DNA from: a virus
Length of the DNA stretch: 25,302 bases
Reading direction: 5' to 3' (one strand)
Virus record (IMG/VR): IMGVR_UViG_3300002052_000036
Location: 1-25,302 of that record
The notes below the pieces were generated by a model, which saw nothing but the letters and a program-made list of their open reading frames with translations, had not been told where the DNA came from and ran no database searches. The position numbers and the translations under genes were made by a program. This document shows positions 5,712 to 25,302 of the stretch, piece by piece (the first letter of the stretch is position 1; each line of letters begins with the position of its first letter).

Positions 5712-8006
5712 ATGGCTAAAGTAGGAGGAGTTGGGCCACAACCCGCCAAGATTATGATTGTCGGGGAGTTTCCCAAGGCTGAAGAAGAGCGGGCAGGACA
5801 GCCTTTTGTAGGTGCTGCGGGTCAGGAGTTGACCCGGATGCTGCACGACGCCGGTATTGACCGGGAGGAGTGTCGCCTTGTCTACGTGACCAAGTACCGG
5901 CCTGTCGGGAATAACATAGGTACTTTTTTCTACTCCAAGGCTGAAGCCAAGAAGCTGGGTCTTGCCCCCCTTGCCGGGAAATTTCCAAAGAGGGAGCTTC
6001 AGGAAGGCTTGAAATCTCTGGCCTTGGAATTTTCGATTACCAATCCGAATGTCGTGATTACCTTGGGTGATACGGCTTTGTGGGCCTTGACTGGACTGGA
6101 GGGAACTACCAGTTGGCGGGGTAGTATTCTGAATACTGAGTTGGAATCTCTTCCGAGGAAGTTCAAGGTTGTTCCCACGTATGACCCTGAAGCTGTCTTG
6201 CGTATGTGGAACTGGCGGTACGTTGCTGTTAATGATTTACGGAGAGCTAGAAATGAAGCTGAGTCACCTGAGATACCTGACCCGGGTTGGAGGTTTATCA
6301 CGGCCCCTACTTACTCTGAAGTTACTAATGAACTACATCGAATTAGAAGCCAGAGTAGGTTGGTGGCTGCTGATATTGAAACTAACAAAGGTCATATTAC
6401 CTGTATCGGATTATCAGGGTTCGAGGGTGAAGCGGTTTGTATTCCGTTTGTACATTCGGGCAACCAGCCGTATTGGACTGCTAAAGAAGAGTTTGCAATC
6501 GTACTACAACTGAAAGAGATTCTTACGGATAAGGCCAAGGAAATCGTCTGGCAGAATGGGCAGTATGATGCTCAGTACCTTGCCAAGTGGTGGGGTTTCC
6601 TGCCGTCGATCGACTTTGACACGATCATTGCTCACCACACTTGCTTTGCCGGGTTACCCAAGTCTCTGGATTTTCTTTCATCTCTATATCTACCGTATCA
6701 CCGGTATTGGAAAAATGAACTGAGAGCCCAACCCGATGAGGTTGTATGGGCCTACAATTGTAAGGATGCGGTTATTACTCGTGCACTGGTAGAGCCCTTG
6801 AAGGCTACAGTTGCGGCCTATCGACTGGAAGAAGTGTTCAAGACCCAGATGAGTTTGAATGGGCCTACCCTACAGATGATGCTGCGGGGCGTGGCGATTG
6901 ACCATGCTCAGACTCCTAGAGTATTATCTGAAGTAGAGGGCAAGATGGAAGCTGAGGAGCGGTTTTTTACAACCGCCCTCGGCCATCCTTTCAATCCAAG
7001 GTCGAACCCTCAAATGCAGACCCTCCTGTATACAGACTTCAGCCTCCCGGTTCAGCGAAATCGAAAGACCGGTAAGCCCACTTGCAATTCAGACGCGCTT
7101 AAATCCCTTGGCCGGAAGGAGCCGATACTCAAGCCTGTTCTGGATAGCATTGTACGTTTCAAAGAGTTGGGGGTGCTGAAGTCTACTTTTCTTGAAGCTA
7201 AGCTGGATACTGACAATCGAATGCACTCCAGCTTTTCTATTACTGGCACTGAGACTTACAGGTTTTCTTCTTCGACTTCTGCATTCTGGAATGGTTTGAA
7301 TATGCAGAACATTCCACCGGAGTTGCGATACCTGTATGTACCAGATGCCGGGTATATCATTGTTGATTGCGATCTTGATCGGGCTGACTTACAAGTTGTT
7401 GTCTGGGAAGCTGACGACCCGGAGTTAAAACAGGTTTTAAGGGAAGGGGTAGATGTTCACACAGAGAATGCAAAGACAATCGGGTGTACGCGCCCTCAAG
7501 CAAAGGCCGGAGTTCATGCCACCAACTACGGTGCTAAACCGAGGACACTCGCAACTACGCTGGGCATTACCGTTAAGGAAGCCGAGGCTTTCCAGAAGCG
7601 GTGGTTTGAAGCGCACCCGGGTATCAAAGAGTGGCACCAGAGGACTGAAGAGGCTCTCTGGGCTAATCGTATGGTTGCCAATCGGTTTGGGTATCGTCGG
7701 TATTATTTTGATCGGGTAGAGGGGCTGCTTCCTCAAGCTCTGGCGTGGGTCCCCCAGTCTACAGTTGGAATCGTTACAAACTTGGGTATGCTCAATATCC
7801 ACAAAAAACTTCCGGAAGTTCAGCTACTTATACAGGTCCATGACAGTTTGGTAATGCAGCTCCCGGAGGATAGAATAGAAGAGTTGCTCCCCCAAGTAAT
7901 CGACTGTATGAAAGTCACTGTACCCTATGACGACCCATTGGTTATCGGGGTTGGGGCAAAAATTTCCCCTGTGAGTTGGGGTGACTGCGAGGAGTATTCT
8001 GTATGA
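5712..8006 (+). CDS. uracil-DNA-glycosylase-like domain fused to DNA polymerase A with 3'-5' exonuclease
   Basis: This is the replicative polymerase candidate, 764 residues. Residues about 12-180 are a UDG-superfamily domain: IMIVGEFPK (14-22), GQPFVGAAG (29-37), NVVITLGDTALWALTG (113-128), and PTYDP (155-159) where an active-site His is usual. The proofreading exonuclease follows with D221-x-E223, D286 (NGQYDAQYL) and Y348-x3-D352. The polymerase has motif A DLDRADLQ (554-561), an O-helix R594-x3-K598-x3-H602-x3-Y606-G607, and motif C QVHDS (708-712). Motif A departs from the usual DYSQIELR: the steric-gate Glu is Asp559 and Arg is Gln561. The O-helix Phe/Tyr position is His602. AGGAG precedes the ATG. 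UDG-polymerase fusions occur in other phages, but the glycosylase activity of this one is doubtful. Confidence 0.93.
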   Translation: MAKVGGVGPQPAKIMIVGEFPKAEEERAGQPFVGAAGQELTRMLHDAGIDREECRLVYVTKYRPVGNNIGTFFYSKAEAKKLGLAPLAGKFPKRELQEGLKSLALEFSITNPNVVITLGDTALWALTGLEGTTSWRGSILNTELESLPRKFKVVPTYDPEAVLRMWNWRYVAVNDLRRARNEAESPEIPDPGWRFITAPTYSEVTNELHRIRSQSRLVAADIETNKGHITCIGLSGFEGEAVCIPFVHSGNQPYWTAKEEFAIVLQLKEILTDKAKEIVWQNGQYDAQYLAKWWGFLPSIDFDTIIAHHTCFAGLPKSLDFLSSLYLPYHRYWKNELRAQPDEVVWAYNCKDAVITRALVEPLKATVAAYRLEEVFKTQMSLNGPTLQMMLRGVAIDHAQTPRVLSEVEGKMEAEERFFTTALGHPFNPRSNPQMQTLLYTDFSLPVQRNRKTGKPTCNSDALKSLGRKEPILKPVLDSIVRFKELGVLKSTFLEAKLDTDNRMHSSFSITGTETYRFSSSTSAFWNGLNMQNIPPELRYLYVPDAGYIIVDCDLDRADLQVVVWEADDPELKQVLREGVDVHTENAKTIGCTRPQAKAGVHATNYGAKPRTLATTLGITVKEAEAFQKRWFEAHPGIKEWHQRTEEALWANRMVANRFGYRRYYFDRVEGLLPQALAWVPQSTVGIVTNLGMLNIHKKLPEVQLLIQVHDSLVMQLPEDRIEELLPQVIDCMKVTVPYDDPLVIGVGAKISPVSWGDCEEYSV

Positions 8007-8251
8007 GCTTGAAAACAACATCATGTGAACCCGCACTATGGTCATATGCTAATGTTACTACTGAGGTTACTACTGTGGGGGTTACTACTGTTGAGGTTAC
8101 TACTACTATAGGTACTGCTTCCTCTGTTGTTACAGCTCCTTTCCGTATGTATGTGGGGGTCGATCTTGCTGGAGAGGTCATAACTATTACTGAACTCGAT
8201 TGGGAAGAAGAACCTGTAGAGGCGAAGGAAGAACTTGGGTGCTGGTGGTGA
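8003..8251 (+). CDS. small Val-Thr-Thr repeat protein
   Basis: This 82-residue protein starts at ATG 8003 (ATGA overlap with the polymerase stop) with GAGGAG (7989-7994) 8 bases upstream. Residues about 18-37 are a short repeat, VTTEVTTVGVTTVEVTT, which would form a beta-rich or Thr-rich extended segment. The rest is ordinary (YVGVDLAGEVITITELDW) and ends acidic. It overlaps the next gene by a GTGA junction at 8248. The repeat comes from a DNA microrepeat (GTTACTACT four times). Coding is supported by tight coupling on both sides. The function is unknown. Confidence 0.65.
   Translation: MSLKTTSCEPALWSYANVTTEVTTVGVTTVEVTTTIGTASSVVTAPFRMYVGVDLAGEVITITELDWEEEPVEAKEELGCWW
8054..8104 (+). repeat. 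GTTACTACT imperfect tandem repeat
   Basis: GTTACTACT occurs exactly at 8054, 8066, 8081 and 8096, with spacings of 12, 15 and 15 bases, and the intervening bases resemble TGAGG/TGGGG. All copies are in frame and encode Val-Thr-Thr. Such in-frame arrays change length by slippage. Confidence 0.8.
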
Positions 8252-9603
8252 GAAAAACACAGGATTTCATGCAGACTTACATGGAGTATTCGGATGCGTC
8301 TGAATCTCCTGACAGCTTTCACAGGTGGACCGCAATCGGTACTGTGGCCGGAGTGTTACGCAGGCGGTGTTGGATAAATCAGGGCCGGTTTCAATGGACT
8401 CCTAATTTTTATCTTATCTTCGTAGCTCCCCCGGGAATCGTACAGAAGAGTACGACTATTGGCTTTGGGCTTGACTTGTTGAAGCAGGTGAAGGGTATTC
8501 ACTTTGGGCCGGATTCCTTGACGTGGCAGGCAATGGTAGAAGAAATGGCTGGCATTCAGGAGAACATGAATATCGGTGGCATTGTCGGCGCATTCTATCC
8601 CATGAGCTGTGTAACGCTTGGCATTTCAGAGTTGGGTACCTTGCTGGACACAGAGAACAAACAGATGATTGACATTATGGTTGACCTCTGGGATTCCCCG
8701 CAGAAGGAGTGGCGGAAGAAAACCAAGACGCAGGGGGAGGACCGGATTGTGAATCCTTGGATTAACATGATGGCTTGCACAACCCCCAAGTGGGTCGGGG
8801 ATAATATGACAGGTCAGACTATAAGCGGTGGCTTCCTCAGTCGCTGCTTGTTTGTTTATGGGGAAGAGAAAAGAAAACTTATCCACTTACCCAGTCAGTT
8901 TGTTGCAGCTCACCATGATGAATTGAAAGATGCCTTGGTATCTGATCTGAGACATATCGCCCAGCATATCAAGGGAGAGTATCACTATCACCGGGATGCT
9001 ATTCAATGGGACCGGGAGTGGTATGACAGACATAACGCTCAGGATTTTTCACACTTGGCTTTCACTATGGTTAGCGGGTATATCCAGAGAAAACAAACTC
9101 ATATTCACAAGACGGCTATGGTCTTGGCTGCTACCCGACGAGATGAAATGGTTATCATGAAAGAGGACTTGATTACAGCAGAGAGAATGGTTACAGACTT
9201 GGAGGAAGATATGGAAAAGGTTTTTGGTCAGATGGAGATTCGTACCTCGTCAAACATGAGGTATTCAGATGATGTGGTAACCCGGGTACGGTATCACAAG
9301 AAGATTAACAAGCAGGCTCTTTATCGCGATATGTTTGCCCGGAAGAAGATGAGCAAGAATGATTTCGACACGATTGTGAAGAGTGCGATCGCTGCTGGTG
9401 AGATAGAGCAGGTGGGCACTGATCTTATTTGGGTAACTCTACAGTCGGGAACAACTCCTCAATCCGGCGGTACTCCTTTCGTAGGCCCCGTTCAACCGGG
9501 CGACCCAGCTCCCGAGAGCGAATCCGGCGTTTACGTTCGCGAAGGGACCGCCTCAACGTCTTACCTGAAATCCTTAGTCTACGGTCCGGTACCCCGGCGT
9601 TGA
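8248..9603 (+). CDS. DUF3987-like helicase/primase-associated ATPase
   Basis: The start is taken as GTG 8248, which overlaps the previous TGA as GTGA; ATG 8269 is an alternative, and the longer frame from 8200 is unlikely. At 451 residues, the protein starts with a helical region containing SFHRWTAIGTVAGVLRRRC. A P-loop-like APPGIVQKSTT (from residue 60) follows. It lacks the canonical Gly before the Lys, which is Gln66. An acidic ISELGTLLD segment lies in the Walker B region. This layout resembles phage DUF3987/YfjI-type proteins, placed with DNA helicases or primase-associated ATPases. Its position next to the polymerase fits replication. The last 59 residues overlap the convergent late gene and become Gly/Pro/Ser-rich, unlike the core. 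Confidence 0.75.
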   Translation: MRKTQDFMQTYMEYSDASESPDSFHRWTAIGTVAGVLRRRCWINQGRFQWTPNFYLIFVAPPGIVQKSTTIGFGLDLLKQVKGIHFGPDSLTWQAMVEEMAGIQENMNIGGIVGAFYPMSCVTLGISELGTLLDTENKQMIDIMVDLWDSPQKEWRKKTKTQGEDRIVNPWINMMACTTPKWVGDNMTGQTISGGFLSRCLFVYGEEKRKLIHLPSQFVAAHHDELKDALVSDLRHIAQHIKGEYHYHRDAIQWDREWYDRHNAQDFSHLAFTMVSGYIQRKQTHIHKTAMVLAATRRDEMVIMKEDLITAERMVTDLEEDMEKVFGQMEIRTSSNMRYSDDVVTRVRYHKKINKQALYRDMFARKKMSKNDFDTIVKSAIAAGEIEQVGTDLIWVTLQSGTTPQSGGTPFVGPVQPGDPAPESESGVYVREGTASTSYLKSLVYGPVPRR

Positions 9604-12600
9604 AAATCTTGATTGATTTACGAATGTCAGCTATGGCTTCCCTGTCGTTGATACGATAGGCGTGGGCCATTTGATTAAGCAGCAGGTTACGCCGGGTCAT
9701 GATGTATTCTTTCATGTCCTCTTGGAAGGCACGTAGTTCGTACCGTTCATTCAGGCGTGTAGGAGTAAAGCCCAGACCTTGAGCTACCAGCTCTGCCATG
9801 TGGCTTGTGTTGTTGGGGTTGAACTCGGCAACTTGTCCGCCCCCTCGGAACTCTTCAGCTCCCCGGGTACCCATCCTCAAGGCTTTGTTAGCACCCTTGA
9901 GAGCACTCGGCATCATTCTTTCCCAACGTTTCCATGAGTCGGGGTTATCATCTTCAAGCGTTTTATAGACAGCATACGGTATGCCAAATACAGCACCACC
10001 CATAGCCGCCAAGGTGCGGCCCAGCTTCTCATCGGGCTTACCAGCTCCGAACATTTCCTGCGTACCCGGTACAGGGCGGCCCATGCTAAGCGAACCGCTG
10101 AGGTCTACATGAGGTATCGGGGCTCCTATCATGGAGAACAGGTGCAGCGGCCCAAGACCGTAGTAGCGGCTCATGCCATGCATCATCAAATCCGGGTTTT
10201 CGGAAAGCCAGCTCATATGTTCCTTCAACTGGCTTCTCAGGTACTCCCGGGTGTTGACTCTGGAGTTCTTGAGGCCCAAGGCTTCCCGGACATTCGAGCC
10301 ACCCCAGTCAATAATGTCCATCAGGTTTTCCGCAAAAGGCAATCCTTGAAGCCCTGCCGTAAAGAGCAGGAGCAGCCACACTCCGATTGCGACCTTCGCC
10401 CCTTCACCGCCAAACAGGACGAAAGCCATATGCTGCATGAAGGTCCAGAACAGGAAGAACACACTCTTCTTACCTCGCATAAACTCCGGTCGATTCCACT
10501 TGGCATACTCAAACATGGTAGAACGTACCGCATCCCTACCTGCTATGAAGGCTCCCTCCATATCCCCGGGGTTGTTTTCCAGATGGAGTTCCACTGAAGC
10601 TATAAATGCTACCCGACGACTTGCCTTTTCTGTCAGGCGGAAAGGAGTAGCCCCGTAGTAGACAAGCCTTGAGGCAAATCTCTGGGCCTTGGTGGAACCC
10701 ATTGCTCGCGCCAGCCCGCTTCCCTGCGAGGCTTCGGCAACCTCTACCGCCATAGACTCTTCCAAGAAACCATCCCGGATACCCCGAGCAATCAGATCAT
10801 CCAATTCCCGGCTGAGGTGGATATTACTTCTGTTCTCCGGGTTGATGTTGAAACCTTTCCACGCTTTAGGAATGGCTTTTGTAAGAGCTGACATTGCCCT
10901 GACACTTCCGTACTGGTTTGACAGGTACGGGAATGTAACCAAAGGCACTTGGCTGAAGTTAACTAAAGCAGATTTTACATTGAAACCAAGGTAGAACATG
11001 AATCCCCAGCTTCGCAGGAAAGCCCATTCATCCTTGGGATAGAGAATGTAATCTTCGTGCCGCTTCAGCGCGTTACGGATTTCATCGAATCCCCGGGTAT
11101 CCCCGCCGAAAGCCAAAGCTCCCATCTCTTCGTCCGTCACACCTACCCGGTGGTCCAGCTCTTTGCGGGCGGCTGCCATTTCTCTCTGGTAGCGGATTCG
11201 GGCCATGTGATTGGCTGCACTCTGCATATAGGAAGTGAACACCCGCTGGGCGTCACTACTCATACCGTCGATACCTCTGCGGCCTACCATGTGTTTGACG
11301 AAGCCTCGTCCGGGTGTCATTGCCAGAGAGATTTTCTTCAGTTGATTTTCCTGAGCTTCGGTAAGACCCATCTTCTCTCTCATACTCTCGAAGAGTGAGG
11401 GTGGAATACCGACAAAATCCTTGACGGCTTCGTCCAAGATTCCTTTGGTCATATGGAATCCATGACGTTGAAGAGTTTTGATCTCGTCTATATCAGCCAG
11501 CAGATTCTGCTCACGGGCGTTCTCGGCAGTAGCAAAGTAAATCAGGTCGCCCGCCTTGTAAGTTTTTCCCTGATAGTTAATCTCGTGGGGAGCAACCACA
11601 GTAATTGTATACTTGCCAAAACGCTTATACGGGAAGTAATCTCTACGCTTCAGTGTGTGGAACTCTTCGGTCGTGTTTTGCCACGCAGCAAACAGGGTTT
11701 CATGCTCTTCCGGGGTAAGCTGGTAACCTTCCAACAGGTTTTGACGACGCTCAATGATGTGCGGAAGGGTTGGGTCTACACTTTCAGGTCCGGCTGCTAC
11801 CCACGCATCGGTCATGACTTCTATGTTAGCGGGGTCTATATTTGCTACCAGACGACTGGCTTGTTCCACCAGACGAGTCCGCTCTACTCCTTTTATGACA
11901 TCTTTCAGCTGTGTCAGTACCTTGTCTACCATCTCATTTACAGCGTTGATTTCGTCACCTGTAACTCCGATCCGCTGGTAGATGCGTGCGCGATCCGGAG
12001 CTGATACTTTGGGATCGTGTCCGGCTGCGGCGTTGGCATCTGACTGGGCTGTGATTTCAAAAAGGGCTCGGCCTACCTTGTTGGAGAAATCTTTGCCCCC
12101 CTTGTTCCACTCTTGAAGGAGTGAGTCTGTCTTGGCAATAACAGCACTCTTGGCCCCAAACCAGTTGGTGACCACATCAATATATTTCTTCACCTCTGGC
12201 AGGTTATAGGTTTTGGCCAGCTGTTCGAGGGTGAGGATTCGGGTAAAGACTTTGGCTTTCCACAGGGACGAGAAGCGGTCTATTTCCTCTACGATATCTT
12301 GGGAAGCTCCCAATGATTTGGCATTCTTGGCTGCTCTGCTCAAGCCAAAGACTCCTTGAGCTACATCAGGAATAGCCAGTTTTTCATCGGCAGCAAGTTG
12401 CCGGGAATATCTATCCAGTAGTCTTTCAAGCTGTCTAAGTTGTTCTTCCCACTTGGAAACTTGAGAACTGAATATTGCGTTAACAGGACCGGCTTCCCTG
12501 CCTTCACTGTCAGTAAGGTAGCCATCAGCCATAGCTATAGAATCATTGTAAGCTTCAGCCATCTCAGCATCTTTAGTATTGGCAAAACGCATCCGGTCTT

Positions 12601-15430
12601 TAACTACTTCAACCTCAAGCGCTTTATCACCTTTACGATAAGCTACATAGCGTTTAACTGCATCCCAAGCTTCTCTCCAACGTTTTATGTTTTCTTTAGA
12701 TTCTTTGATTTCTGTTTTGTAAGACGCTACTAACTCTCTACCCGTTTTCAGGTGGCGTTCCCAAGCAGCGTCATCAATATAAGAGCCGTCTTTACGATAA
12801 CGAGTGCGGGTTCTTTCGGTTCCAAAGTGATCTGTATAGGTAACACCTTGGGATTTTCCACCTTGCTGTGCTTGGGCAGCTTCCAGTGGGTTTGCCATCT
12901 CGAAGGTGGCTGCTCCATTGAGGTGGTCTCTCAGACCTTGCAGAATGAAAGAGATGTCAGTGTCGTTGAGGCGCAGGGTAAGACCCATGCGGCGTAAAGC
13001 GTTACGGACCAGTGCGTAGAGTTTCTTGAGGAAACTCATATTATAGGCACTGGGATTTTCGGCAGCGTGAGCTATTACCTCTTCAGCCATCAGATCGGCT
13101 ACTTTCGGATTACTCTTCATGGCCTCAAGCTGGTCACGTTCAAGAGCCCGTTGTTCCATTGCTTCTTTCTGGGACTTCTTGACCAGATTGATTATGCTAC
13201 GATAGGCAGTATTACCAAGAGACCGGAGACCACCATGACCTACGACCTCATGGAGATACATGGAGATAGCTTGCTCTTCGCTGGTGATTTCACTCAGGAA
13301 GAAATAAGACGTTCCACGGGAACCATCGGCTTTGGGGATATGCAGACCTTGAGTAGTGAATCCACTCATAGCATCTCGGGCACGTATGGTAGACGCCAGC
13401 TCGATGTTGTCCATCTCGGCAATGTGATCGAGGATGACTATGTTACCTTCGTCCTTGACCCGTACCTTCTCGATAGCACTTAGAAATTGCTTGCGGGTAA
13501 AACCCCGACCGAGAATAGTCTGGGCATAGCCTCCTTGGGTGAAAGAGGGGTCTCCCTGTAAGGCTTTCAACCGATCTCGGAAGTCCCGCTCACGCTCCTT
13601 CCGGACCTTTTCAATGAATCGGGCATCTCGTTCGGTTTCTGTCAGGGCTTCAGCTTCTGCCTCCAATTCGAGGGCCGCAGATTCCTGATCGGCAGCTTTC
13701 TGGATTTGATCTCCACCTTTAGCTTTTGTTTCGAGGCGTTCCAGTTTTTCATATTCAAGTTCACTGAGGCCTTCCATTTCCTCTTTACGGCGAAGCTTGG
13801 CAAGAAATCTTTTCTCTCCCGGAGAGAGGGCAGCATCTTTCTGACGGACTACATCTGAAGTAGGAGTATCCAGAAAACCCGGAGACTGGACGCCTAGCTT
13901 TTCGGCAATCTTGGTCATCTTGGTTTCCAGCTTCTTGATGCTGGCCGTAGCAGTTGGTTTCAGGGTGCCTGTCTTGGCCCATGATTCCTGTGCGCTAAGA
14001 AGTCCCTGCCGGATGTCCCACAGGGTACGGAAAACAGCATCGTTCCTCAGGGTTTGATACTGCCCCAGATTTTGTTTGAGGTTGGCCAGTTCTCTTCGGG
14101 CCTTGGCCTTGGCTACCTCGAAATCGGCAATCTTCTGCTCTGCTGAAAGTTCTGACGCAGTAGTAAGGGTCAGGGACTCCATAGGCATATCAAGATCAAC
14201 CGTCTGGGCTGAACTATTGGAGAGAGCCTTGACCTTCTTGGCCTCCTGTACCGGGGTTTCCGGGGAGGTAGAAGGAGTCTCATCCAGTTGGGCATTGAAT
14301 TTTTCGGCGGCCGCAGCGAAATCTTCCCGGGCAGTCGGAGTGAGCTTGGTGGGGTCCGGGGGAGCCGAGGGTTCTTCTGTACCCTGCGGGGGCTGCTCCG
14401 GGGTTATTGGGGCTGCTGGGGGAGTTTCTGGAGTAGTTTCAGTTTCTGTACCTTGCCCCCCAATGTCTGGTTCTGGCTGAGTAGTTCCATCTGCTCTGGG
14501 CCGGAAGAATCCACCCGCTCCGCCAAATACGAAACCGACGAAACCTCCAGTAATACCTGAGTCAAGTAGTCGGGCTTTCGCTTCGTCCCCCAGAGAATCG
14601 TATTCTTCGTCTACGGTTTTCCGGGCGGCAATCGCCAGAGCTTCTTGCATTACTTCTGTACTGGCTTCAGTAAAAGCAGCTGTAGCGCCTACAGCCCCCA
14701 TTCTCTTTGGCCGGGTCATCTTAGCCAGAGCCTGCTTGTAGTTGCCCATCAGCTTGGATGCTGTGGGGGCTCCTACCCTGAAGTAGCTCATGGCTGCAAT
14801 GGGCAGCAGGGCTTCCAGAGAGCCAGCAGCAGTACCGAAAGCTAGGGCTGAGCCACCTTCCAAGGGAAGACCTTCTTCGATGCGTTCACCGGTAATTCCT
14901 CCAGTTTCCAGAGCACTGGCTCCTGCGGTGATACCCCCTACAGCTCCCCACTGGGCCATCTTTTGACCGAGGAAGTTGAGAGCAGTCTTCTCAAGACCTT
15001 TCTTGGCAGCAAGCCCCAGAATGCTACCAGCGCCACCAGTAAGAAGTACCGAGGCAATCACAGGTACCTGCTCTCCGAGGACTGAGGCAGCCCATGACAC
15101 GAACTGGCCGGGGGTGTCTATCTGATCCCACGAGGGGACCTCAGCAGCGTACTGCTGGGCTTCTTGGGTAAGCCTTTGGTAGTCAGCTATACGCTGAGCT
15201 GTGAACTCGTCAGCGCCTGTTATATCGCCCAAGGCTGCCCCAGCTCCATGGAACAGGGCTCTGGTCTGGAGAAGTCCCCGGGATAGTCCCTTTGAAAATT
15301 CTCCGGGTTGGGATTCGGGCTCACCTATACCCAACCGGCGTAGTCGAGCATCGAGGTCTACACTTATATCAGGTAGACCGCCGTCCTCGGTTATACCGAG
15401 CCTATTAAGTCTGTCTTCCAGTCCGCTCAT
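9425..15430 (-). CDS. giant polyvalent internal virion/ejection protein with zincin and LPD38-like regions
   Basis: This 2001-residue protein is probably injected with the DNA. The N-terminus has two LxxRLxRLGI copies (residues 4-13 and 27-36). Gly/Ala-rich hydrophobic helices lie at about 122-142, 162-172, 193-216 and 291-307. A Pro/Thr-rich linker (about 315-395) and charged coiled coils (about 430-625) follow. A zincin motif HEVVGH is at 727-732 (13235-13252), with EEVIAH at 783-788. From about 1470, WGFMFYLGFNVKSALVNFSQ and later hydrophobic segments (about 1655-1700) resemble Large Polyvalent Protein-associated Domain 38. The C-terminus is Arg-rich (about 1948-1990). It starts at ATG 15430, overlapping the upstream stop by one base, and is the last gene of the late operon. 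Proteolytic activity is inferred from the motif only. Confidence 0.88.
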   Translation of the reverse strand: MSGLEDRLNRLGITEDGGLPDISVDLDARLRRLGIGEPESQPGEFSKGLSRGLLQTRALFHGAGAALGDITGADEFTAQRIADYQRLTQEAQQYAAEVPSWDQIDTPGQFVSWAASVLGEQVPVIASVLLTGGAGSILGLAAKKGLEKTALNFLGQKMAQWGAVGGITAGASALETGGITGERIEEGLPLEGGSALAFGTAAGSLEALLPIAAMSYFRVGAPTASKLMGNYKQALAKMTRPKRMGAVGATAAFTEASTEVMQEALAIAARKTVDEEYDSLGDEAKARLLDSGITGGFVGFVFGGAGGFFRPRADGTTQPEPDIGGQGTETETTPETPPAAPITPEQPPQGTEEPSAPPDPTKLTPTAREDFAAAAEKFNAQLDETPSTSPETPVQEAKKVKALSNSSAQTVDLDMPMESLTLTTASELSAEQKIADFEVAKAKARRELANLKQNLGQYQTLRNDAVFRTLWDIRQGLLSAQESWAKTGTLKPTATASIKKLETKMTKIAEKLGVQSPGFLDTPTSDVVRQKDAALSPGEKRFLAKLRRKEEMEGLSELEYEKLERLETKAKGGDQIQKAADQESAALELEAEAEALTETERDARFIEKVRKERERDFRDRLKALQGDPSFTQGGYAQTILGRGFTRKQFLSAIEKVRVKDEGNIVILDHIAEMDNIELASTIRARDAMSGFTTQGLHIPKADGSRGTSYFFLSEITSEEQAISMYLHEVVGHGGLRSLGNTAYRSIINLVKKSQKEAMEQRALERDQLEAMKSNPKVADLMAEEVIAHAAENPSAYNMSFLKKLYALVRNALRRMGLTLRLNDTDISFILQGLRDHLNGAATFEMANPLEAAQAQQGGKSQGVTYTDHFGTERTRTRYRKDGSYIDDAAWERHLKTGRELVASYKTEIKESKENIKRWREAWDAVKRYVAYRKGDKALEVEVVKDRMRFANTKDAEMAEAYNDSIAMADGYLTDSEGREAGPVNAIFSSQVSKWEEQLRQLERLLDRYSRQLAADEKLAIPDVAQGVFGLSRAAKNAKSLGASQDIVEEIDRFSSLWKAKVFTRILTLEQLAKTYNLPEVKKYIDVVTNWFGAKSAVIAKTDSLLQEWNKGGKDFSNKVGRALFEITAQSDANAAAGHDPKVSAPDRARIYQRIGVTGDEINAVNEMVDKVLTQLKDVIKGVERTRLVEQASRLVANIDPANIEVMTDAWVAAGPESVDPTLPHIIERRQNLLEGYQLTPEEHETLFAAWQNTTEEFHTLKRRDYFPYKRFGKYTITVVAPHEINYQGKTYKAGDLIYFATAENAREQNLLADIDEIKTLQRHGFHMTKGILDEAVKDFVGIPPSLFESMREKMGLTEAQENQLKKISLAMTPGRGFVKHMVGRRGIDGMSSDAQRVFTSYMQSAANHMARIRYQREMAAARKELDHRVGVTDEEMGALAFGGDTRGFDEIRNALKRHEDYILYPKDEWAFLRSWGFMFYLGFNVKSALVNFSQVPLVTFPYLSNQYGSVRAMSALTKAIPKAWKGFNINPENRSNIHLSRELDDLIARGIRDGFLEESMAVEVAEASQGSGLARAMGSTKAQRFASRLVYYGATPFRLTEKASRRVAFIASVELHLENNPGDMEGAFIAGRDAVRSTMFEYAKWNRPEFMRGKKSVFFLFWTFMQHMAFVLFGGEGAKVAIGVWLLLLFTAGLQGLPFAENLMDIIDWGGSNVREALGLKNSRVNTREYLRSQLKEHMSWLSENPDLMMHGMSRYYGLGPLHLFSMIGAPIPHVDLSGSLSMGRPVPGTQEMFGAGKPDEKLGRTLAAMGGAVFGIPYAVYKTLEDDNPDSWKRWERMMPSALKGANKALRMGTRGAEEFRGGGQVAEFNPNNTSHMAELVAQGLGFTPTRLNERYELRAFQEDMKEYIMTRRNLLLNQMAHAYRINDREAIADIRKSIKIFNAGVPDRRLRISGKTLRRSLRERKRRIRSRELGRPVERGLRKEYRRIEELFPTVELPK

Positions 15431-19209: not shown

Positions 19210-19858
19210 CACCCATCGTACGATCTTTATTTGCTTCCCTGTTGGCTATGTCATTACGCCATACCCGATCTTTACCCTTGGCAGCTTGATTGTAAAAAAC
19301 AGCAGCCTGTTGATCACTCTGCTGGTATTGAGCGGCTATAATAGCTCCCACCTCTCCAAGGAACCAATCTCCGGCATACTTAAGCCAGTTGTTCTCGATG
19401 TTTGCAGCATCCCCATAAGTGCCTGCCAGAGAAGTATCCTTGGCGTAATAACGCATCTTTATGGTATAGGTATCATCCGGGGTTGGAGATAGCAGGAAGT
19501 AATCCCCGGCTATGTCATAAGCAACAGGCTTACCCGCTTCTGTATTGGCAGCTTTTATGGAATCCCAATCGTCTTTGTCCAACTCAATCCAAGGATCGTC
19601 TGCGGTAGAATCGTAAAGATAAAGAGTTCCCTCCTCCCATTCTTGCAGGAAGTCAGTAGGAAGCTGAAGCCGCTCGTCATCTGCTACAGTAGTTGTAGTT
19701 GTAACTTCTGATACTAGCCAGAGAGGTTTCAAGGTGCCTTGTTCAAGAATATGCTCTTGTACAAACACCATTTCATTGATGATTTCATCCCGCAAGGTTG
19801 TATCGTTACTCTTGCCCAATCGTTGCAGAATAATATCGACTATACTATCTCGTGTCAT
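19202..19858 (-). CDS. head-tail adaptor-like protein
   Basis: At 218 residues, the protein has a helical N-terminus (DSIVDIILQRLGKSNDTTLR, then MVFVQEHILEQG). A beta-rich middle follows, with VADDERLQLPTDFLQEWEEG, a DPWIELDKDDWDSIKA stretch and FLLSPTPDDTYTIKMRYY. A helical end carries the residues facing the next ring. The pattern matches adaptor proteins that connect portal to nozzle in podoviruses (P22 gp4/T7 gp11 class). It is immediately upstream of the nozzle-like gene. A minor tail protein is the alternative. Confidence 0.72.
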   Translation of the reverse strand: MTRDSIVDIILQRLGKSNDTTLRDEIINEMVFVQEHILEQGTLKPLWLVSEVTTTTTVADDERLQLPTDFLQEWEEGTLYLYDSTADDPWIELDKDDWDSIKAANTEAGKPVAYDIAGDYFLLSPTPDDTYTIKMRYYAKDTSLAGTYGDAANIENNWLKYAGDWFLGEVGAIIAAQYQQSDQQAAVFYNQAAKGKDRVWRNDIANREANKDRTMGDE

Positions 19859-20174
19859 TTTTACATTCCCTCGGTAATGGTCTCCGGGCGATTACATCCA
19901 TATTACAGTTGTGCCTGCGAATAACTTCAGACTGCTTTCGTGAACGAATAGCGAGGTCTTTCCACTTCCGGCCTTCCAGTTTAGGGTCAGGTATACGCTT
20001 GGTCAGCTCATCATTTACCAGACGGGGATGAACTGTGCACCCCGCCAAGCTCAAGAATAGTGCTGTCAGGCATATCAATATTACTGCACCCCGTTGGATC
20101 GGATGCTTTTTCGATTCGCTCAACACTCTCTTTAACCTCCTGCTCGTGTTTGACATTCCCGGCCTTGATGTCAC
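19845..20174 (-). CDS. outer-membrane spanin lipoprotein (Rz1-like), overlapping Rz
   Basis: The GTG at 20174 has AAGGA about 5 bases upstream; ATG 20156 (residue 7) is also possible. The 109-residue protein has a basic N-terminus, a hydrophobic run (VILICLTALFLSL) and a lipobox LAGC at 43-46, so it should be lipidated and sorted to the outer membrane. The mature part is basic and longer than the classic Pro-rich Rz1. The first half overlaps the i-spanin gene by 164 bases in another frame, the Rz/Rz1 arrangement. Its 3' end overlaps the adaptor gene by 14 bases. With Rz it would fuse inner and outer membranes at lysis. Confidence 0.8.
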   Translation of the reverse strand: MTSRPGMSNTSRRLKRVLSESKKHPIQRGAVILICLTALFLSLAGCTVHPRLVNDELTKRIPDPKLEGRKWKDLAIRSRKQSEVIRRHNCNMDVIARRPLPRECKNDTR

Positions 20175-20307
20175 CGAGGTCCTTCAACTCCCGTTTGTCT
20201 TCCTTGAGAGCTGAGATTGTAACCTTGCTAGCCTGATAAGACATTCCCATGTAGAAAGCTCCCGCAAGGGCAAGCATTCCTATTCCAATCAGATATATTT
20301 TATTCAT
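20011..20307 (-). CDS. inner-membrane spanin (Rz-like)
   Basis: The 98-residue type II membrane protein has an N-terminal transmembrane segment (about 4-24, IYLIGIGMLALAGAFYMG). A charged periplasmic coiled coil follows (about 28-68, SALKEDKRELKDLG; EQEVKESVERIEK), then a short C-terminus with a lone Cys (DPTGCSNIDMPD). This is the Rz plan. The start ATG 20307 overlaps the holin candidate's stop by 4 bases. The 3' 164 bases are shared with the lipoprotein ORF in another frame. Confidence 0.82.
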   Translation of the reverse strand: MNKIYLIGIGMLALAGAFYMGMSYQASKVTISALKEDKRELKDLGDIKAGNVKHEQEVKESVERIEKASDPTGCSNIDMPDSTILELGGVHSSSPSGK

Positions 20308-20510: not shown

Positions 20511-20929
20511 AATAGAATCCTCAAATCCGGGTAAGGCGAGGGAATCTTGCCATAAGTATAGGCAACATGATCTTCACCCTCAAGAAATGTCAGGATGTCA
20601 GAAACTACCAAGGCAATCCTGTGTCTAATGCCATCTTGTTCATAGACATGACGACCCAATCTATAGGAATAGGTCTCGTTCCAGTTAGAGGGAAGCTCCC
20701 AATACAGAACAGAAAGAACGGTGACGTTCACGAGAATATCAGTTACTGCTGAGATCGCCATTGAGACAGCCCATGCCACTGAAAGAGGATAGAGAGCAAT
20801 CTTATAGGTGGTAGAGCGTTGAGTCAGTTCGAGAAGCGCCTGTCCCCACTTCATCAAGAAGCCGAAAGTAAAGAACCCGCGAAGAACAAAGGGAAAGGCA
20901 ATGCCAACTATAATGTATTCAAGTGTCAT
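20507..20929 (-). CDS. multi-spanning membrane protein in the lysis cassette
   Basis: This 140-residue protein has hydrophobic segments at about 3-26 (YIIVGIAFPFVLRGFFTFGF) and 44-78. A roughly 60-residue soluble tail ends IPSPYPDLRIL. It overlaps the endolysin stop and the holin candidate start by 4 bases each. It could modulate hole formation or act as a second holin. I do not recognise a family. Confidence 0.65.
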   Translation of the reverse strand: MTLEYIIVGIAFPFVLRGFFTFGFLMKWGQALLELTQRSTTYKIALYPLSVAWAVSMAISAVTDILVNVTVLSVLYWELPSNWNETYSYRLGRHVYEQDGIRHRIALVVSDILTFLEGEDHVAYTYGKIPSPYPDLRILF

Positions 20930-21321
20930 TTTTCCTCCAGTTCAAAATGAGGTAAGTCGTGGAAATTCTGGTCTTTTACTTCCATGTCTCCATCCCAATC
21001 AGCTCCGCAGCGAATGTTAATACCGAGCTGACTAGCAATACCGCGAACAATCCCGACAAACATATAAAAGCGGCGAGTATCGTCCCAATCAATAGGATAG
21101 GGAACAGCATCAACTGCCCTAGATGGGAATGAGTTATGCTTTGAGTTAGGAAACTGAACCTTGGATTTTCCTTCCGCATAAAGTTTGGTTTGCCTCTCTT
21201 CATTACGATGCCCCTCAAGAATGCTGCAATCGTAGTACTTAATGACTTCATTGAAAAGACGTTGTAAGTCGGGATGACAAGACCCCAGATTCATCTTTGA
21301 TTTTGTTCCAAAACTAGGCAT
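20926..21321 (-). CDS. endolysin, M15-type L-alanyl-D-glutamate peptidase
   Basis: The start at ATG 21321 is chosen over the longer frame from 21405. AGGGGG lies just upstream, and the extra 28 residues would run back into the previous gene. The 131-residue protein has the core of VanY/Peptidase_M15_4 phage lysins: ILEGHRNEERQ, then the zinc ligands H62 (SKHNSFPSRAVD), D71 and H125 (DLPHFEL), with D122 as the likely catalytic acid. It would cleave the peptide stem of peptidoglycan. No signal sequence or SAR segment is present, so export depends on a holin. The length is normal for a single-domain lysin. Confidence 0.9.
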   Translation of the reverse strand: MPSFGTKSKMNLGSCHPDLQRLFNEVIKYYDCSILEGHRNEERQTKLYAEGKSKVQFPNSKHNSFPSRAVDAVPYPIDWDDTRRFYMFVGIVRGIASQLGINIRCGADWDGDMEVKDQNFHDLPHFELEEK

Positions 21322-21329
21322 GAGGCCCC

Positions 21330-21869
21330 CTAAAGAGTAAGGATCAGGTTTCCAGCTGCCCGGTAGTAGATTCGCATTTGCATAGAATCTACTCTGACGT
21401 ACCAAGGTCCCGGGGTAGCTGCCTGTACAAACTGGACTTTGAATCCAAAATCAGAGGCTTCTACTTGGGCAGAAGTTAAAGACAATCCCCATTGGTCTGT
21501 CTGGCCCCCATAAGTAATCCAATCATAGGTACTATCATTTACCGCAGTTGGTACATCCTTGGCATCCCCTGTTACAGACCCACCAACAATAAGTTTTACG
21601 TCATCATCATTAACAGTATTGCCGGTCTTATAAGCCTTTACCCGGGCTTCCACTCCCCAAATCCAAGTAGGGTCACCCGGAAAGGAGAAGCCAAAATTTG
21701 TAACCTCAATGGTATCCGTAAGGTCATACACTTCTACTTGCAAAAGACCTGTCCCAGTACCATCTTCAGCCAGAACATTGCTAAGTAAAGTCCAATGGTA
21801 TGAACTGCCATTGTAGGTAGTATTGACAGTACCCGGGTCTGTCCAGTCGGTTACCAGTATCTCACTCAT
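21330..21869 (-). CDS. beta-rich virion or tail-associated protein
   Basis: The ATG at 21869 is used (179 residues, MSEILVTDWTDPG), with a purine-rich GAGGGGAGAAGAAGAG upstream. The open frame continues to 22076 but that part overlaps the fibre gene and looks like noise. The sequence alternates strands with Gly/Thr/Asp turns (GVEARVKAYKTG; VKLIVGGSVTGD; YVRVDSMQMRIYYR), suggesting a beta-sandwich such as a carbohydrate-binding or fibre-tip domain. It stands between the tail fibre and endolysin genes. The family is not recognised. Confidence 0.7.
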   Translation of the reverse strand: MSEILVTDWTDPGTVNTTYNGSSYHWTLLSNVLAEDGTGTGLLQVEVYDLTDTIEVTNFGFSFPGDPTWIWGVEARVKAYKTGNTVNDDDVKLIVGGSVTGDAKDVPTAVNDSTYDWITYGGQTDQWGLSLTSAQVEASDFGFKVQFVQAATPGPWYVRVDSMQMRIYYRAAGNLILTL

Positions 21870-21885: not shown

Positions 21886-22554
21886 TTACACCGCCGAGTG
21901 GTTGAGGTTGGTGGCAACGCAGGAGATTTTTCCGTGGGATTTGATGATCCCGAGGAAGTCTTGGACGTTAGTATCCACCGTAAGAGTAGGACTATCATTA
22001 TCAATCCCACTAAGAGTAATGGTATAACCTCCGGTGTTATGTATTGCCAAAGTTGCTTTGTCATTGGTGTTTGCACTCGCTATCGTCAGGGTTATATTTG
22101 AACTGACTTCAATGATATGCAGTTCTGCGTCTTCCAGATCAATCTGGGTACTGACACTCAGGGTTCCCCAATCCTTGACCCTGAAAGCTTCCATTTCGGC
22201 ATCGACAAAGGCCGTAGTAGCAATCTGGGTTGTACTTGTTCCAACCGAAGCCGTAGGTGCAGCCGGGGTACCCGTAAAAGTAGGACTTGCTACAGCTGCC
22301 TTTGCATTTAGCTGAGTCTGGATTGCCGAAGTAACTCCACTAACATAGTTCAATTCTGTCGTAGTGACTGTTGCTCCATCCAGAATATTCAGCTCAGCTG
22401 GAGTAGTAGTAACTGCCCCATTAATACTGGGAAAAGTCGTCTTCAGAATTGCTTTGATCAGACGTAGATGGTCATCAGCCGTTGCCCGATCATCCGTACC
22501 CGGAGGATTGGTAGAGACCAAGTCGCTTATGTAACTACCAGATTCAAGACCCAT
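21886..22554 (-). CDS. tail fibre protein with collar-type repeats
   Basis: At 222 residues, the N-terminus GSYISDLVSTNPPGTDDRAT, followed by ADDHLRLIKAILKTTFPSIN, is a common start of phage tail-fibre proteins and probably the virion attachment part. It is followed by ELN-type repeats (AELNILDGATVTTTELNYV), a fibre repeat typical of phages (SPTFTGTPAAPTASVGTSTT, then QIATTAFVD) and a beta-rich C-terminus with NITLTIAS and YTITLSG. It should trimerise and contact the host. The start overlaps the small upstream ORF by 11 bases. Confidence 0.82.
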   Translation of the reverse strand: MGLESGSYISDLVSTNPPGTDDRATADDHLRLIKAILKTTFPSINGAVTTTPAELNILDGATVTTTELNYVSGVTSAIQTQLNAKAAVASPTFTGTPAAPTASVGTSTTQIATTAFVDAEMEAFRVKDWGTLSVSTQIDLEDAELHIIEVSSNITLTIASANTNDKATLAIHNTGGYTITLSGIDNDSPTLTVDTNVQDFLGIIKSHGKISCVATNLNHSAV

Positions 22555-22684
22555 CGGAGCCCTCCTGTTCTTTCAGCAGTTTGGTTAGTGCGGCAATCAC
22601 CCGCAAATAGTTCGGGGCTTCAACCCCTTGAATCTGGACTCGCTGTAAAAAAGCCAAAGTCATCTGTATCTCTTCTTTAGTCAT
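22544..22684 (-). CDS. 46-residue small protein between two fibre genes
   Basis: ATG 22684 overlaps the stop of the upstream fibre gene (TAATG) and its TGA ends 11 bases inside the next fibre gene. The protein starts MTKEEIQMTLAFLQRVQIQG and is helical and charged (VIAALTKLLKEQEGSDGS). Coding is supported by the overlaps on both sides and the GGAG-type site feeding the next start. It may be a small assembly or accessory protein. The function is unknown. Confidence 0.65.
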   Translation of the reverse strand: MTKEEIQMTLAFLQRVQIQGVEAPNYLRVIAALTKLLKEQEGSDGS

Positions 22685-23679
22685 TAGTTTGGAACCCTCA
22701 AAACTTTATAACCAGACCCACCTGAATCATCTGCACCGACAGAAACCCTAACCAGTGCTCCAGTATCTACATCCCAGACAAGCATCCTAGTATTTCCAGC
22801 CGTACTATCGCCATCAAACTGGCTAGCATCTCCGGCTTGTGAAGTTAGTGTAATATTAGAACCAGACTTAAAAGTTCTAAGATTTAATTTGCCAAGATTA
22901 TAACCCCAACTTATAATAGCACCTTGAGCCATAGAGGGAGACCCAAAATTGTAAGTACTCGCTTGAGCATCTCCCCCTAGAATACTTATTCCAGTTGCGG
23001 TGTACTTTTCTACAACGATACCATCTGCATTAGTCGGAGCTGTTACTGTTCCTGCACTGGAAGTGTGAACGTGGAGGGTACCATCAGGATTACCTATTCC
23101 TATGCCCAGCCATCCATTCTCGTCAAATCTTGCTATCTCGCTGTCTGAACCCAATCCCCTGAATACTATTTGGCCCGCAGAAGTAGATGCTGTGCTAATA
23201 GTTAAGGCTGCGTTGGTATAATCCCATCGCACATAGGCCCCTACTGCACTAGATGGAGTACCAAATGCGTAATAACTTTGGCTTGCATCTGGGCACAACA
23301 ACGTCATACCAGTAGTCCCGGAATTTTCTACTACTAGATCGTCAACACTGGAATTAGCAGTAACAGTGCCAGCAGTAGCGGTGTGGATATGGAAGGTTCC
23401 ATCAGGAGAGACTGAAGTAGAGCCGATGATTCCTGTGGTGCCTGCTTCAAATGCCCCGGTTGCACTTAAGGTTGTAAAGGCCCCTGCGGCGGGGGTTGTA
23501 CCTCCTATTGCAGCACTATTAATAGTTCCACCGGTTACTGCAACCGCACTTCCAATTGCAGTCCAGAGTTCGGCAAGAGTTTCAGGCCCCCCCAGAAGAT
23601 CATGAATAAAGGCATCGACTTCATTAAGCCAATCAGCTTCGATTATAGTTTCTTCAGAGACAAAATTAGTAGTTGCCAT
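22684..23679 (-). CDS. tail fibre/spike protein with a duplicated segment
   Basis: The 331-residue beta-rich protein begins with an attachment-like helix (IIEADWLNEVDAFIHDLLGG). A Gly/Ala/Thr collar follows (GGTTPAAGAFTTLSATGA), and then a segment repeated with period 106: about 92-165 (PDGTFHIHTATAGTVTANSS) and about 198-270 (PDGTLHVHTSSAGTVTAPTN), with continuing similarity (VVENSGTTGM versus VVEKYTATGI). The C-terminus ends GGSGYKVLRVPN. It resembles tail fibres and spikes that present sugar-binding surfaces. It couples to the small genes on both sides. Confidence 0.8.
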   Translation of the reverse strand: MATTNFVSEETIIEADWLNEVDAFIHDLLGGPETLAELWTAIGSAVAVTGGTINSAAIGGTTPAAGAFTTLSATGAFEAGTTGIIGSTSVSPDGTFHIHTATAGTVTANSSVDDLVVENSGTTGMTLLCPDASQSYYAFGTPSSAVGAYVRWDYTNAALTISTASTSAGQIVFRGLGSDSEIARFDENGWLGIGIGNPDGTLHVHTSSAGTVTAPTNADGIVVEKYTATGISILGGDAQASTYNFGSPSMAQGAIISWGYNLGKLNLRTFKSGSNITLTSQAGDASQFDGDSTAGNTRMLVWDVDTGALVRVSVGADDSGGSGYKVLRVPN

Positions 23680-23848: not shown

Positions 23849-24087
23849 CAACCGCCCCCATGTTTAAAAAAGAAGTTGTAAACTGCAAGACCTATGGCTG
23901 AAAGAAACGAGATTGCTCCCCAGCCAAACACCTGCGTCTTGATCTTTTCCCAGCGCTCTTCTTTACGCTGTTCCCGCTTAAGAAGAAGTGCTATATAGTC
24001 ATGATGCTCTTGATGGATTTCATCAATGATAGTCCTGTTTTCATGAAGAACTTCTCGTAAAGCTTCAACAAGCTCAGATTTTTCCAT
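23848..24087 (-). CDS. small membrane protein with long N-terminal helix
   Basis: The 79-residue protein has a charged, His-rich helix (about 1-50, VEALREVLHENRTIIDEIHQ) that may be coiled coil. A single C-terminal transmembrane segment (about 54-74, FGWGAISFLSAIGLAVYNFF) ends KHGGG. Single-span proteins like this occur in late regions of many phages with holin or anti-holin labels, but no holin motif is visible. It overlaps the repeat protein's stop by one base. Confidence 0.7.
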   Translation of the reverse strand: MEKSELVEALREVLHENRTIIDEIHQEHHDYIALLLKREQRKEERWEKIKTQVFGWGAISFLSAIGLAVYNFFFKHGGG

Positions 24088-25302
24088 TACTTCAACCCTA
24101 CAAATTTTGGCACTGTCAGGTAATCCTCTAACAGATTAATAGTGTTCTGAGAGACCGCAGTTACTGTGCCGCTTACAGAAAATTCCACTACTACACTTTT
24201 TGCCGCTGGCAAATTTGTAATGGATGCCAAGTTAAAGGTAGTCGAGTAGTGCCCGCTACCAACTTCAGAAAGAGTTTGCTCTTTCGTGGTCCACCCCGAA
24301 GTTTTGAAGGTGACGTCGTTAAAGTCCAGATAAGATGTGCTGTCCAGAATATTCCTGACAGAAGCCCTAACCGTAAGGCCGGTAACACCGCCTGTATCGC
24401 TAGTAACCGCCAAGCTTAATGGAACTGCCGTATCTGTCCTCGTAATAACCAATTCATCCCCCACAATGATCTGGGCTGTTACCTGTAATCCGCCAACAAT
24501 TGTTGCTGAGAATGTTGACAGCGTAAGGGCATCTACAGTTGCACTGACAGTAACGTCTAATGCCAACCCGGCAGAATACTCTGTAAGTAACAGGGTATCT
24601 GTAGATGCTAGGATGTTCTTAGCAGCGTTTACATTGGCTGCGAGGGCGGTAAGGACAAGGCTGTCCTTTGTAGCAGAAACCGCTTTATGGAGGGCAATTC
24701 CCGCTGAATACTCGGTGAGAGTCAGGATCGCTCTGGTGGCATTGACCTCGGTGTCTACCGCAGCCAGCGATATGGTCGCATTATACTCAGTAAGGGTAAG
24801 TGAGGCCAGTCCAGCCAGTACATTAATTTCAGTGTTAACAGAGGCTGAATACCCTGTGAGGGAGAGAATATCTACCCCAGCCTGCACATTCTTAGGCAGC
24901 TGAATCGTAGCTGGATATTCTGTAAGAGTCAGAGCATCGGTGCTAGCAGATAAACTGGTTTCAGCGTTTACCGTGGCCTGATACTCGGTCAGTGATAGCG
25001 CATCTACGCCAGCATCAATACTGGTTTCAGCGTTAACACCGGCTTGGTACTCAGTCAGCGTGAGGGAGGCAACTCCCGCGCTTACATTGACATTCGTTGT
25101 TAAATCGACCGTGGCCTGATAGGTTGTCAGGGTAAGACTATCAACCCCTGCCGAAATCCCAAGAGGCAGCGTAACTGTCGCGTCATACTCAGTCAGCGTT
25201 AAAGCAGCTACCGTGGCGGATATGCCAAGCGGGAGAGTGACTGTCGCTGCATATTCAGTCAGGGTTAAAGCGTCAACCCCGGCGGTGAAACTTGTCTCTG
25301 CG
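24087..25302 (-). CDS. virion protein of degenerate 22-residue repeats, 5' end outside window
   Basis: The frame is open to the right edge, so at least 404 residues are present and the true start lies outside the window. The GTG at 24887 is an internal codon, not a start. At least twelve repeats of 22-25 residues follow the pattern (A/S)AGVxALTLTEYxATVxLxxx. They are followed by a unique C-terminal domain of about 130 residues (24087-24482) containing VITRTDTAVPLSLAVTSDTG and YSTTFNLASITNLP. The repeats are hydrophobic/Thr-rich and suit a beta-solenoid or stacked Ig-like fibre. The position at the distal end of the late operon suggests a tail or head-fibre protein. The family is not identified. 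Confidence 0.8.
   Translation of the reverse strand, partial: AETSFTAGVDALTLTEYAATVTLPLGISATVAALTLTEYDATVTLPLGISAGVDSLTLTTYQATVDLTTNVNVSAGVASLTLTEYQAGVNAETSIDAGVDALSLTEYQATVNAETSLSASTDALTLTEYPATIQLPKNVQAGVDILSLTGYSASVNTEINVLAGLASLTLTEYNATISLAAVDTEVNATRAILTLTEYSAGIALHKAVSATKDSLVLTALAANVNAAKNILASTDTLLLTEYSAGLALDVTVSATVDALTLSTFSATIVGGLQVTAQIIVGDELVITRTDTAVPLSLAVTSDTGGVTGLTVRASVRNILDSTSYLDFNDVTFKTSGWTTKEQTLSEVGSGHYSTTFNLASITNLPAAKSVVVEFSVSGTVTAVSQNTINLLEDYLTVPKFVGLK
24483..25302 (-). repeat. about 66-bp tandem repeat encoding LTLTEY units
   Basis: At least twelve copies of a 66-75 base unit lie in one reading frame, each centred on a TACTC(A/G)GT(C/A)AG-like plus-strand core that encodes LTEY. 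Copies are diverged in DNA but conserved in protein, so selection is probably at protein level. The array continues beyond the right edge. Confidence 0.85.

Follow-up and report, generated by a model that had tools for sequence, protein, structure and literature searches.

A 22-residue repeat family of environmental phages, predicted to form the beta-solenoid shaft of a surface fibre

How is a phage protein built that shows, at the end of a contig, a dozen variants of one 22-residue unit, and what would such a protein do on a virion? The question is raised by the right end of the IMG/VR virus record IMGVR_UViG_3300002052_000036, whose 25,302 nucleotides, analysed as a whole, are called the window here. 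We lean, with rather more belief than doubt, towards a gene for that part of a phage surface fibre or adhesin which bears the shaft, and in which each unit would form one coil of a modelled rod. The window features on which the argument draws are as follows.

24087..25301, minus strand: C-terminal 404 codons and stop of the repeat protein (open reading frame, 5'-open at the window edge; the remainder is L005:36-1526, minus strand)
24483..25289, minus strand: array of 12 units of 22 aa (anchors and spacing; unit HMM matches in 12 of 12; AlphaFold2 model with three strands per unit)
25289, 25223, 25157, 25085, 25019, 24953, 24887, 24821, 24746, 24680, 24614 and 24548, minus strand: first bases (high coordinate) of the 12 units
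24090..24446, minus strand: C-terminal non-repeat beta domain, residues about 286-404 (tblastn 43-50%; 49% identity to the L018 C-terminus)
22684..23679, minus strand: downstream gene of 331 aa, putatively tail-fibre-like from its appearance (open reading frame; no PHROG or Pfam match)
21886..22554, minus strand: downstream tail fibre protein gene of 222 aa (PHROG tail fibre families, E down to 1e-10)

The array and its full-length protein

The frame is open to the right edge of the window, as an earlier note on this DNA had read it; it runs on the minus strand from 25301 to a stop at 24087-24089, giving 404 codons, and the GTG at 24887 is the opening codon of unit 7 and not a gene start. The twelve 22-residue units that the note had counted as a minimum are there, as imperfect copies starting at residues 5, 27, 49, 73, 95, 117, 139, 161, 186, 208, 230, and 252. 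Their spacings are 22, 22, 24, 22, 22, 22, 22, 25, 22, 22, and 22, with two extra residues past unit 3 and three past unit 8. The periodicity of the window protein is far above chance: at lag 22 its self-identity reaches 0.37, whereas no lag in any of 1000 shuffles exceeds 0.21. The motif AGVxxLTLTEYxATV had been ascribed to every unit, which is too strict, because exact LTLTEY occurs in six of the 12 and "AGV" in about half. The note had also called the protein conserved and the DNA diverged. Mean pairwise identity between units is 50% for both, and as a statement about constraint on old copies the description stands: identity between units is 65% at codon position 2 and 29% (saturated) at position 3, and therefore the copies are old and have been held by selection on the protein.

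A second contig, IMGVR_UViG_3300002052_000064 (locus L005 in our numbering), was located with a 28-base pattern taken from the window edge, and its first 36 bases are exactly the last 36 of the window. A stop or frameshift just outside the window, which would have left the repeats untranslated, was sought and is absent: in L005 the same frame runs on without a stop and reaches an ATG at L005:1526(-), which lies 497 codons upstream of the window. The full-length repeat protein thus apparently has 497 + 404 = 901 aa. Its N-terminal part comprises two beta-rich domains (residues about 1-225 and 250-475), between which lies a lone unit, INAGVDALTLTTYAATI (residues ~229-247), and the first unit of the array follows the second domain. 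In other words, the array does extend past the window, as had been proposed, but in L005 not far: one further consecutive unit and one isolated unit are gained, and the rest of the N-terminal half is the two non-repeat domains. The joined protein has 13 consecutive units, a lower bound because further units may have been collapsed or the length may vary in the population, plus the isolated one, and then the C-terminal domain.

Searches of Pfam, PHROGs, NCBIfam, and PDB sequences assign the N-terminal domains to no recognised family; that they are adhesive is our guess from composition and position. Counterparts of the C-terminal domain occur as separate open reading frames in L003 and L004 (43-50% by tblastn) and as the C-terminus of the homologue in L018 (49% identity), with no match found in cultured phages. 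Contigs of three assemblies end in or just before the array (the window, L005, L002/L006, L010, and L011), and L006 (L006:8780; L002/L006) ends on exactly the last base of the window, 25302. These contig ends suggest that repeats were collapsed or that array length varies within the population.

A repeat family with a linked partner gene

A search of viral contigs with the unit alignment gave 19 loci with the repeat (two belong to the virus of the window itself, and a few are duplicates), and a search with a neighbouring gene of 145 aa gave 72 loci, most of which encode a protein whose period is exactly 22 in a shuffle-controlled periodicity scan. With an iterated unit HMM and duplicates removed, there are 55 distinct entries, with the window and L005 counted separately although each holds half of the same protein, and 494 distinct units. 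The spacing over these entries is 22 in 370 cases, 24 in 41, and something else in a few. The period is rigid, and the modular repeat protein proposed in the note is supported. L031, first recruited through a match, carries only a diverged array.

The detected copy number reaches 25 and drops to a few where the array is a fragment at a contig end or the member is diverged, in line with the variation between phages that the note had thought possible. The clearest evidence for a change in unit number between close relatives comes from L060 and L066, whose flanking DNA is 87% and 79% identical, yet which have 13 and nine units, respectively. The ends of the proteins are mosaic, judging from shared sequences: one N-terminal domain is common to L005, L011, and L018, another to L024-L026, and another to L072, L073, and L076; the C-terminal domain of the window is shared with L018; and a 30-residue C-terminal cap is common to L020, L029, L037, L059, L080, and L099 and, more weakly, to L030.

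In 51 of the 55 entries, the partner of 145 aa (consensus MATGDVTVFDEAKAYMIDGGW...GDLTITWNASGIFTI) is encoded in the same orientation as the array and no more than about 4.4 kb from it. It was not found in the window (the gene sits on the L005 side, at L005:1988-2434(-)), in L011 and L019 (both cut short), or in L018, the sole locus without it that is long enough to judge. Because loci recruited by the repeat alone also carry the partner, the association is not merely a product of the partner-gene search. The copy in L027 matches phrog_644 (function unknown) with E 6.6e-21. The partner is near the arrays in L015-L030, L037-L106, L107, and L108, as a two-gene cassette at differing points of the structural module. 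It is normally inherited together with the repeat protein, and may serve as a mount or assembly factor.

Outside these loci, the repeat protein is not explained by Pfam, PHROGs, NCBIfam, or PDB sequences, which yield at most chance-level matches or repeat-summed ones without an individual stretch. By tblastn, the repeat is found in none of 50,697 phage records (the nearest match is groEL only, E 0.6), a repeat query found none in bacterial genomes, and literature searches did not turn up the 22-residue repeat family. Two further repeat motifs, "VTVTGVSAT" and "GSFxLTGQxA", served as queries. The former found nothing in cultured phages, where the low-complexity filter may have masked the query, and the latter led to gp72 of EBPR siphovirus 2 (L033), which was rejected as a family member since the unit and tripled HMMs score at shuffle level.

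Partner homologues lie near other phage repeats of about 22 residues: distant ones near the differently worded repeats of the protein UOF77273 of the Manatee Spring phage MW202475 (L034) and near gp72, and one near the repeat protein of L105. UOF77273 and the L105 protein have a period of 22, as in the family. The tripled unit HMM gives 57.8 bits for L105 (reversed control, 21.3) and a weak 14.9 bits for UOF77273 (its shuffles, under 2), whereas gp72, unlike the family, has no HMM match. A kinship of these repeat types is suggested. Arrays are also present in contigs of metagenome-assembled genomes (MAGs), namely L107 (Methanoperedens MAG) and L108 (Anaerolineae MAG), two of the four MAG contigs found via the partner gene; both are probably phage contigs binned with their hosts. 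From these searches, the family is apparently found almost exclusively in environmental phage DNA and is apparently a new sequence family in the libraries searched, although its general kind, the beta-helical phage fibre, is already known.

The predicted coil

A repeated fold, as the note expected of a modular fibre, is predicted. A first AlphaFold2 run, on the whole 404 aa with a 17-row alignment, reached a pLDDT of 55.6, too weak for a fold assignment, and its viral Foldseek matches (TM-score <=0.34) were not used. The second run covered the array alone (residues 1-285), used an alignment of 47 arrays, and reached a moderate pLDDT of 74.5 and a pTM of 0.64, with three short strands in nearly every unit; the five models of the array range from 74.5 to 58.4. 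According to this model, each unit would be one coil of a three-sided parallel beta-solenoid, with strands at unit positions 8-10, 15-17, and 1-3, corners at 11-14, 18-20, and 4-7, and the aliphatic residues at 1, 3, 8, 10, 15, and 17 stacked inside. A beta-solenoid rises by about 4.8 A per coil, and the 13 consecutive coils would stack into a rigid rod roughly 6 nm long.

In VIA-align structural alignments with the array model, the neighbours are mostly right-handed parallel beta-helices, with Z of 17-19 for several: the phi29 gp12 appendage (Z 19.4, rmsd 3.4, 275 aligned), the antifreeze solenoid 3p4g (Z 18.9, rmsd 3.7, 245 aligned), and the Sf6 tailspike (Z 18.3, rmsd 3.3, 269 aligned). Left-handed helices (LpxD) align only at an rmsd of 12 A. 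Foldseek with the same model finds no significant match in the PDB or among viral structures, and therefore the likeness is one of architecture and not evidence of kinship. The beta-helix tailspikes and appendages (Sf6, HK620, 9NA, and CBA120 TSPs, phi29 gp12, and gp015 of Agrobacterium phage 7-7-1) are phage adhesive structures that share the predicted coil architecture (Z up to 19); gp015 is a long tail fibre with a beta-helical middle and a jelly roll end (PMC12796354). In contrast to them, the repeat protein has uniform 22-residue coils without long loops and no sequence similarity to a PDB chain, and its family has other end domains and a widely variable number of coils. Bacterial antifreeze and adhesin solenoids (3p4g, SRRP, tapirin, and HxuA) are likewise parallel beta-solenoids of short coils, but the repeat protein is unrelated to them in sequence, lies in a phage genome, and gives no indication of a calcium-binding role. 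Nor does the repeat protein match the sequence models of pectate-lyase-like tailspike depolymerases, having no match in Pfam, PHROGs, NCBIfam, or PDB sequences.

Phage fibres are usually trimers, and an objection to the single-chain coil is that the repeat may form a homotrimeric, interwoven fibre of the triple beta-spiral or beta-prism type, the solenoid being an AlphaFold2 artefact. The alternating hydrophobic pattern would suit trimer packing too, and AlphaFold2 is known to predict beta-solenoids too readily where repeats are perfect, stacking charged residues in the interior (PMC11795689). The units of the window, on the contrary, are imperfect repeats, and their core is free of the implausible buried charges described for such artefact models (PMC11795689): over the 494 units, positions 1, 3, 8, 10, 15, and 17 are 0.0-0.6% charged and 83-100% aliphatic, Ala, Cys, or Phe, and the charges concentrate at positions 6, 12, and 20. 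Three hydrophobic strands and polar corners within 22 residues also suit a three-sided coil better than a triple beta-spiral unit of about 15 residues; the adenovirus-type shaft built of that unit was rejected, the period being 22 or 24 in nearly all entries. We regard the trimer as a serious but unlikely alternative. In all 24-residue units, the additional two residues lie at one corner, and such insertions together with a charge-free core are what a real coil predicts. As modelled, the array falls in the parallel beta-solenoid class, with one coil per repeat and an inward aliphatic stack without buried uncompensated charge.

The corner insertions have a spacing of their own. In L016, L020, L022, L023, L027, L038, L051, L060, L092, and the window, the +2 insertions occur at the same corner, often four units apart. 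Insertions of two or three residues are four units apart in six of 15 gaps (1.7 expected, p 0.003), and 12 arrays have one after unit 4 (six expected, p 0.011), in tests that were made after the pattern was seen and on arrays some of which are related. The spacing may mark a four-coil building block.

Probable place on the virion

The structural-gene setting implied by the note's virion protein is borne out, the array lying in a late structural region with tail-fibre-like, portal, terminase, and capsid genes. The window carries virion structural, ejection, tail fibre, and endolysin genes, L005 encodes an SU10-type capsid, arrays in other phages neighbour terminase, portal, head closure, and capsid genes, and collagen-like genes are near several arrays. 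Three observations concern the rest of the window. The overlapping frames 20011-20307 and 19845-20174 (minus strand) resemble a nested spanin pair of the Rz/Rz1 type and lie close to the endolysin gene (20926-21405). Downstream of the ejection-type genes, 9425-15430 (minus strand) encodes a 2001-aa protein without a Pfam match, probably a giant internal virion protein. Finally, a 15-nt tandem repeat, GAGGTTACTACTGTG, is present in 2.8 copies at 8063-8104, inside a small open reading frame (8003-8251).

The most economical reading is that the virion bears a rigid rod with adhesive domains; we infer a virion location, adhesion, a probable place on the tail rather than the head, and a length that may set reach. 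The repeat protein could instead be a decoration fibre attached to the head, an adhesin displayed on the capsid and directed at particles, mucus, or sediment. Its gene lies between the capsid gene (in L005) and the tail genes in the genome of the window, directly before scaffold-like and capsid genes in L022, and directly after terminase and portal-type genes in L018. That position varies, however, with terminase, portal, capsid, Hc3, or tail spike genes alongside, and the neighbouring tail-fibre-like and collagen-like genes suit a tail fibre module at least as well; a head fibre seems to us rather improbable. The least probable reading is that the array only spaces globular domains flexibly, is maintained through drift and slippage, and has a length without function. 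This would suit the wide copy-number variation and the linker-like lone unit between the N-terminal domains, but a period and core strictly conserved while synonymous sites are saturated point to a folded, selected unit.

For the favoured surface fibre, the rod would bear two beta-rich, probably adhesive domains N-terminally and a small domain C-terminally; across phages, the end domains would be swapped, and the number of coils would change by gain and loss of units. As a bolder speculation, of which we are doubtful, single-chain beta-solenoid fibres that grow or shrink by single coils (perhaps by blocks of four, with the +2 corner insertion as their mark) and are mounted on the virion via a dedicated partner, the 145-aa protein, would be widespread, and the number of units would be an evolvable ruler of adhesin reach.

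Fibres determine which cells phages infect, and most fibres of environmental phages are not recognisable by sequence. The strict 22-residue signature and its linked marker gene allow the automatic detection of many unannotated phage fibre loci, and with natural pairs like L060 and L066 one can ask whether selection acts on fibre length. If the model of one coil per unit is true, the coil count would be a simple proxy of shaft length.
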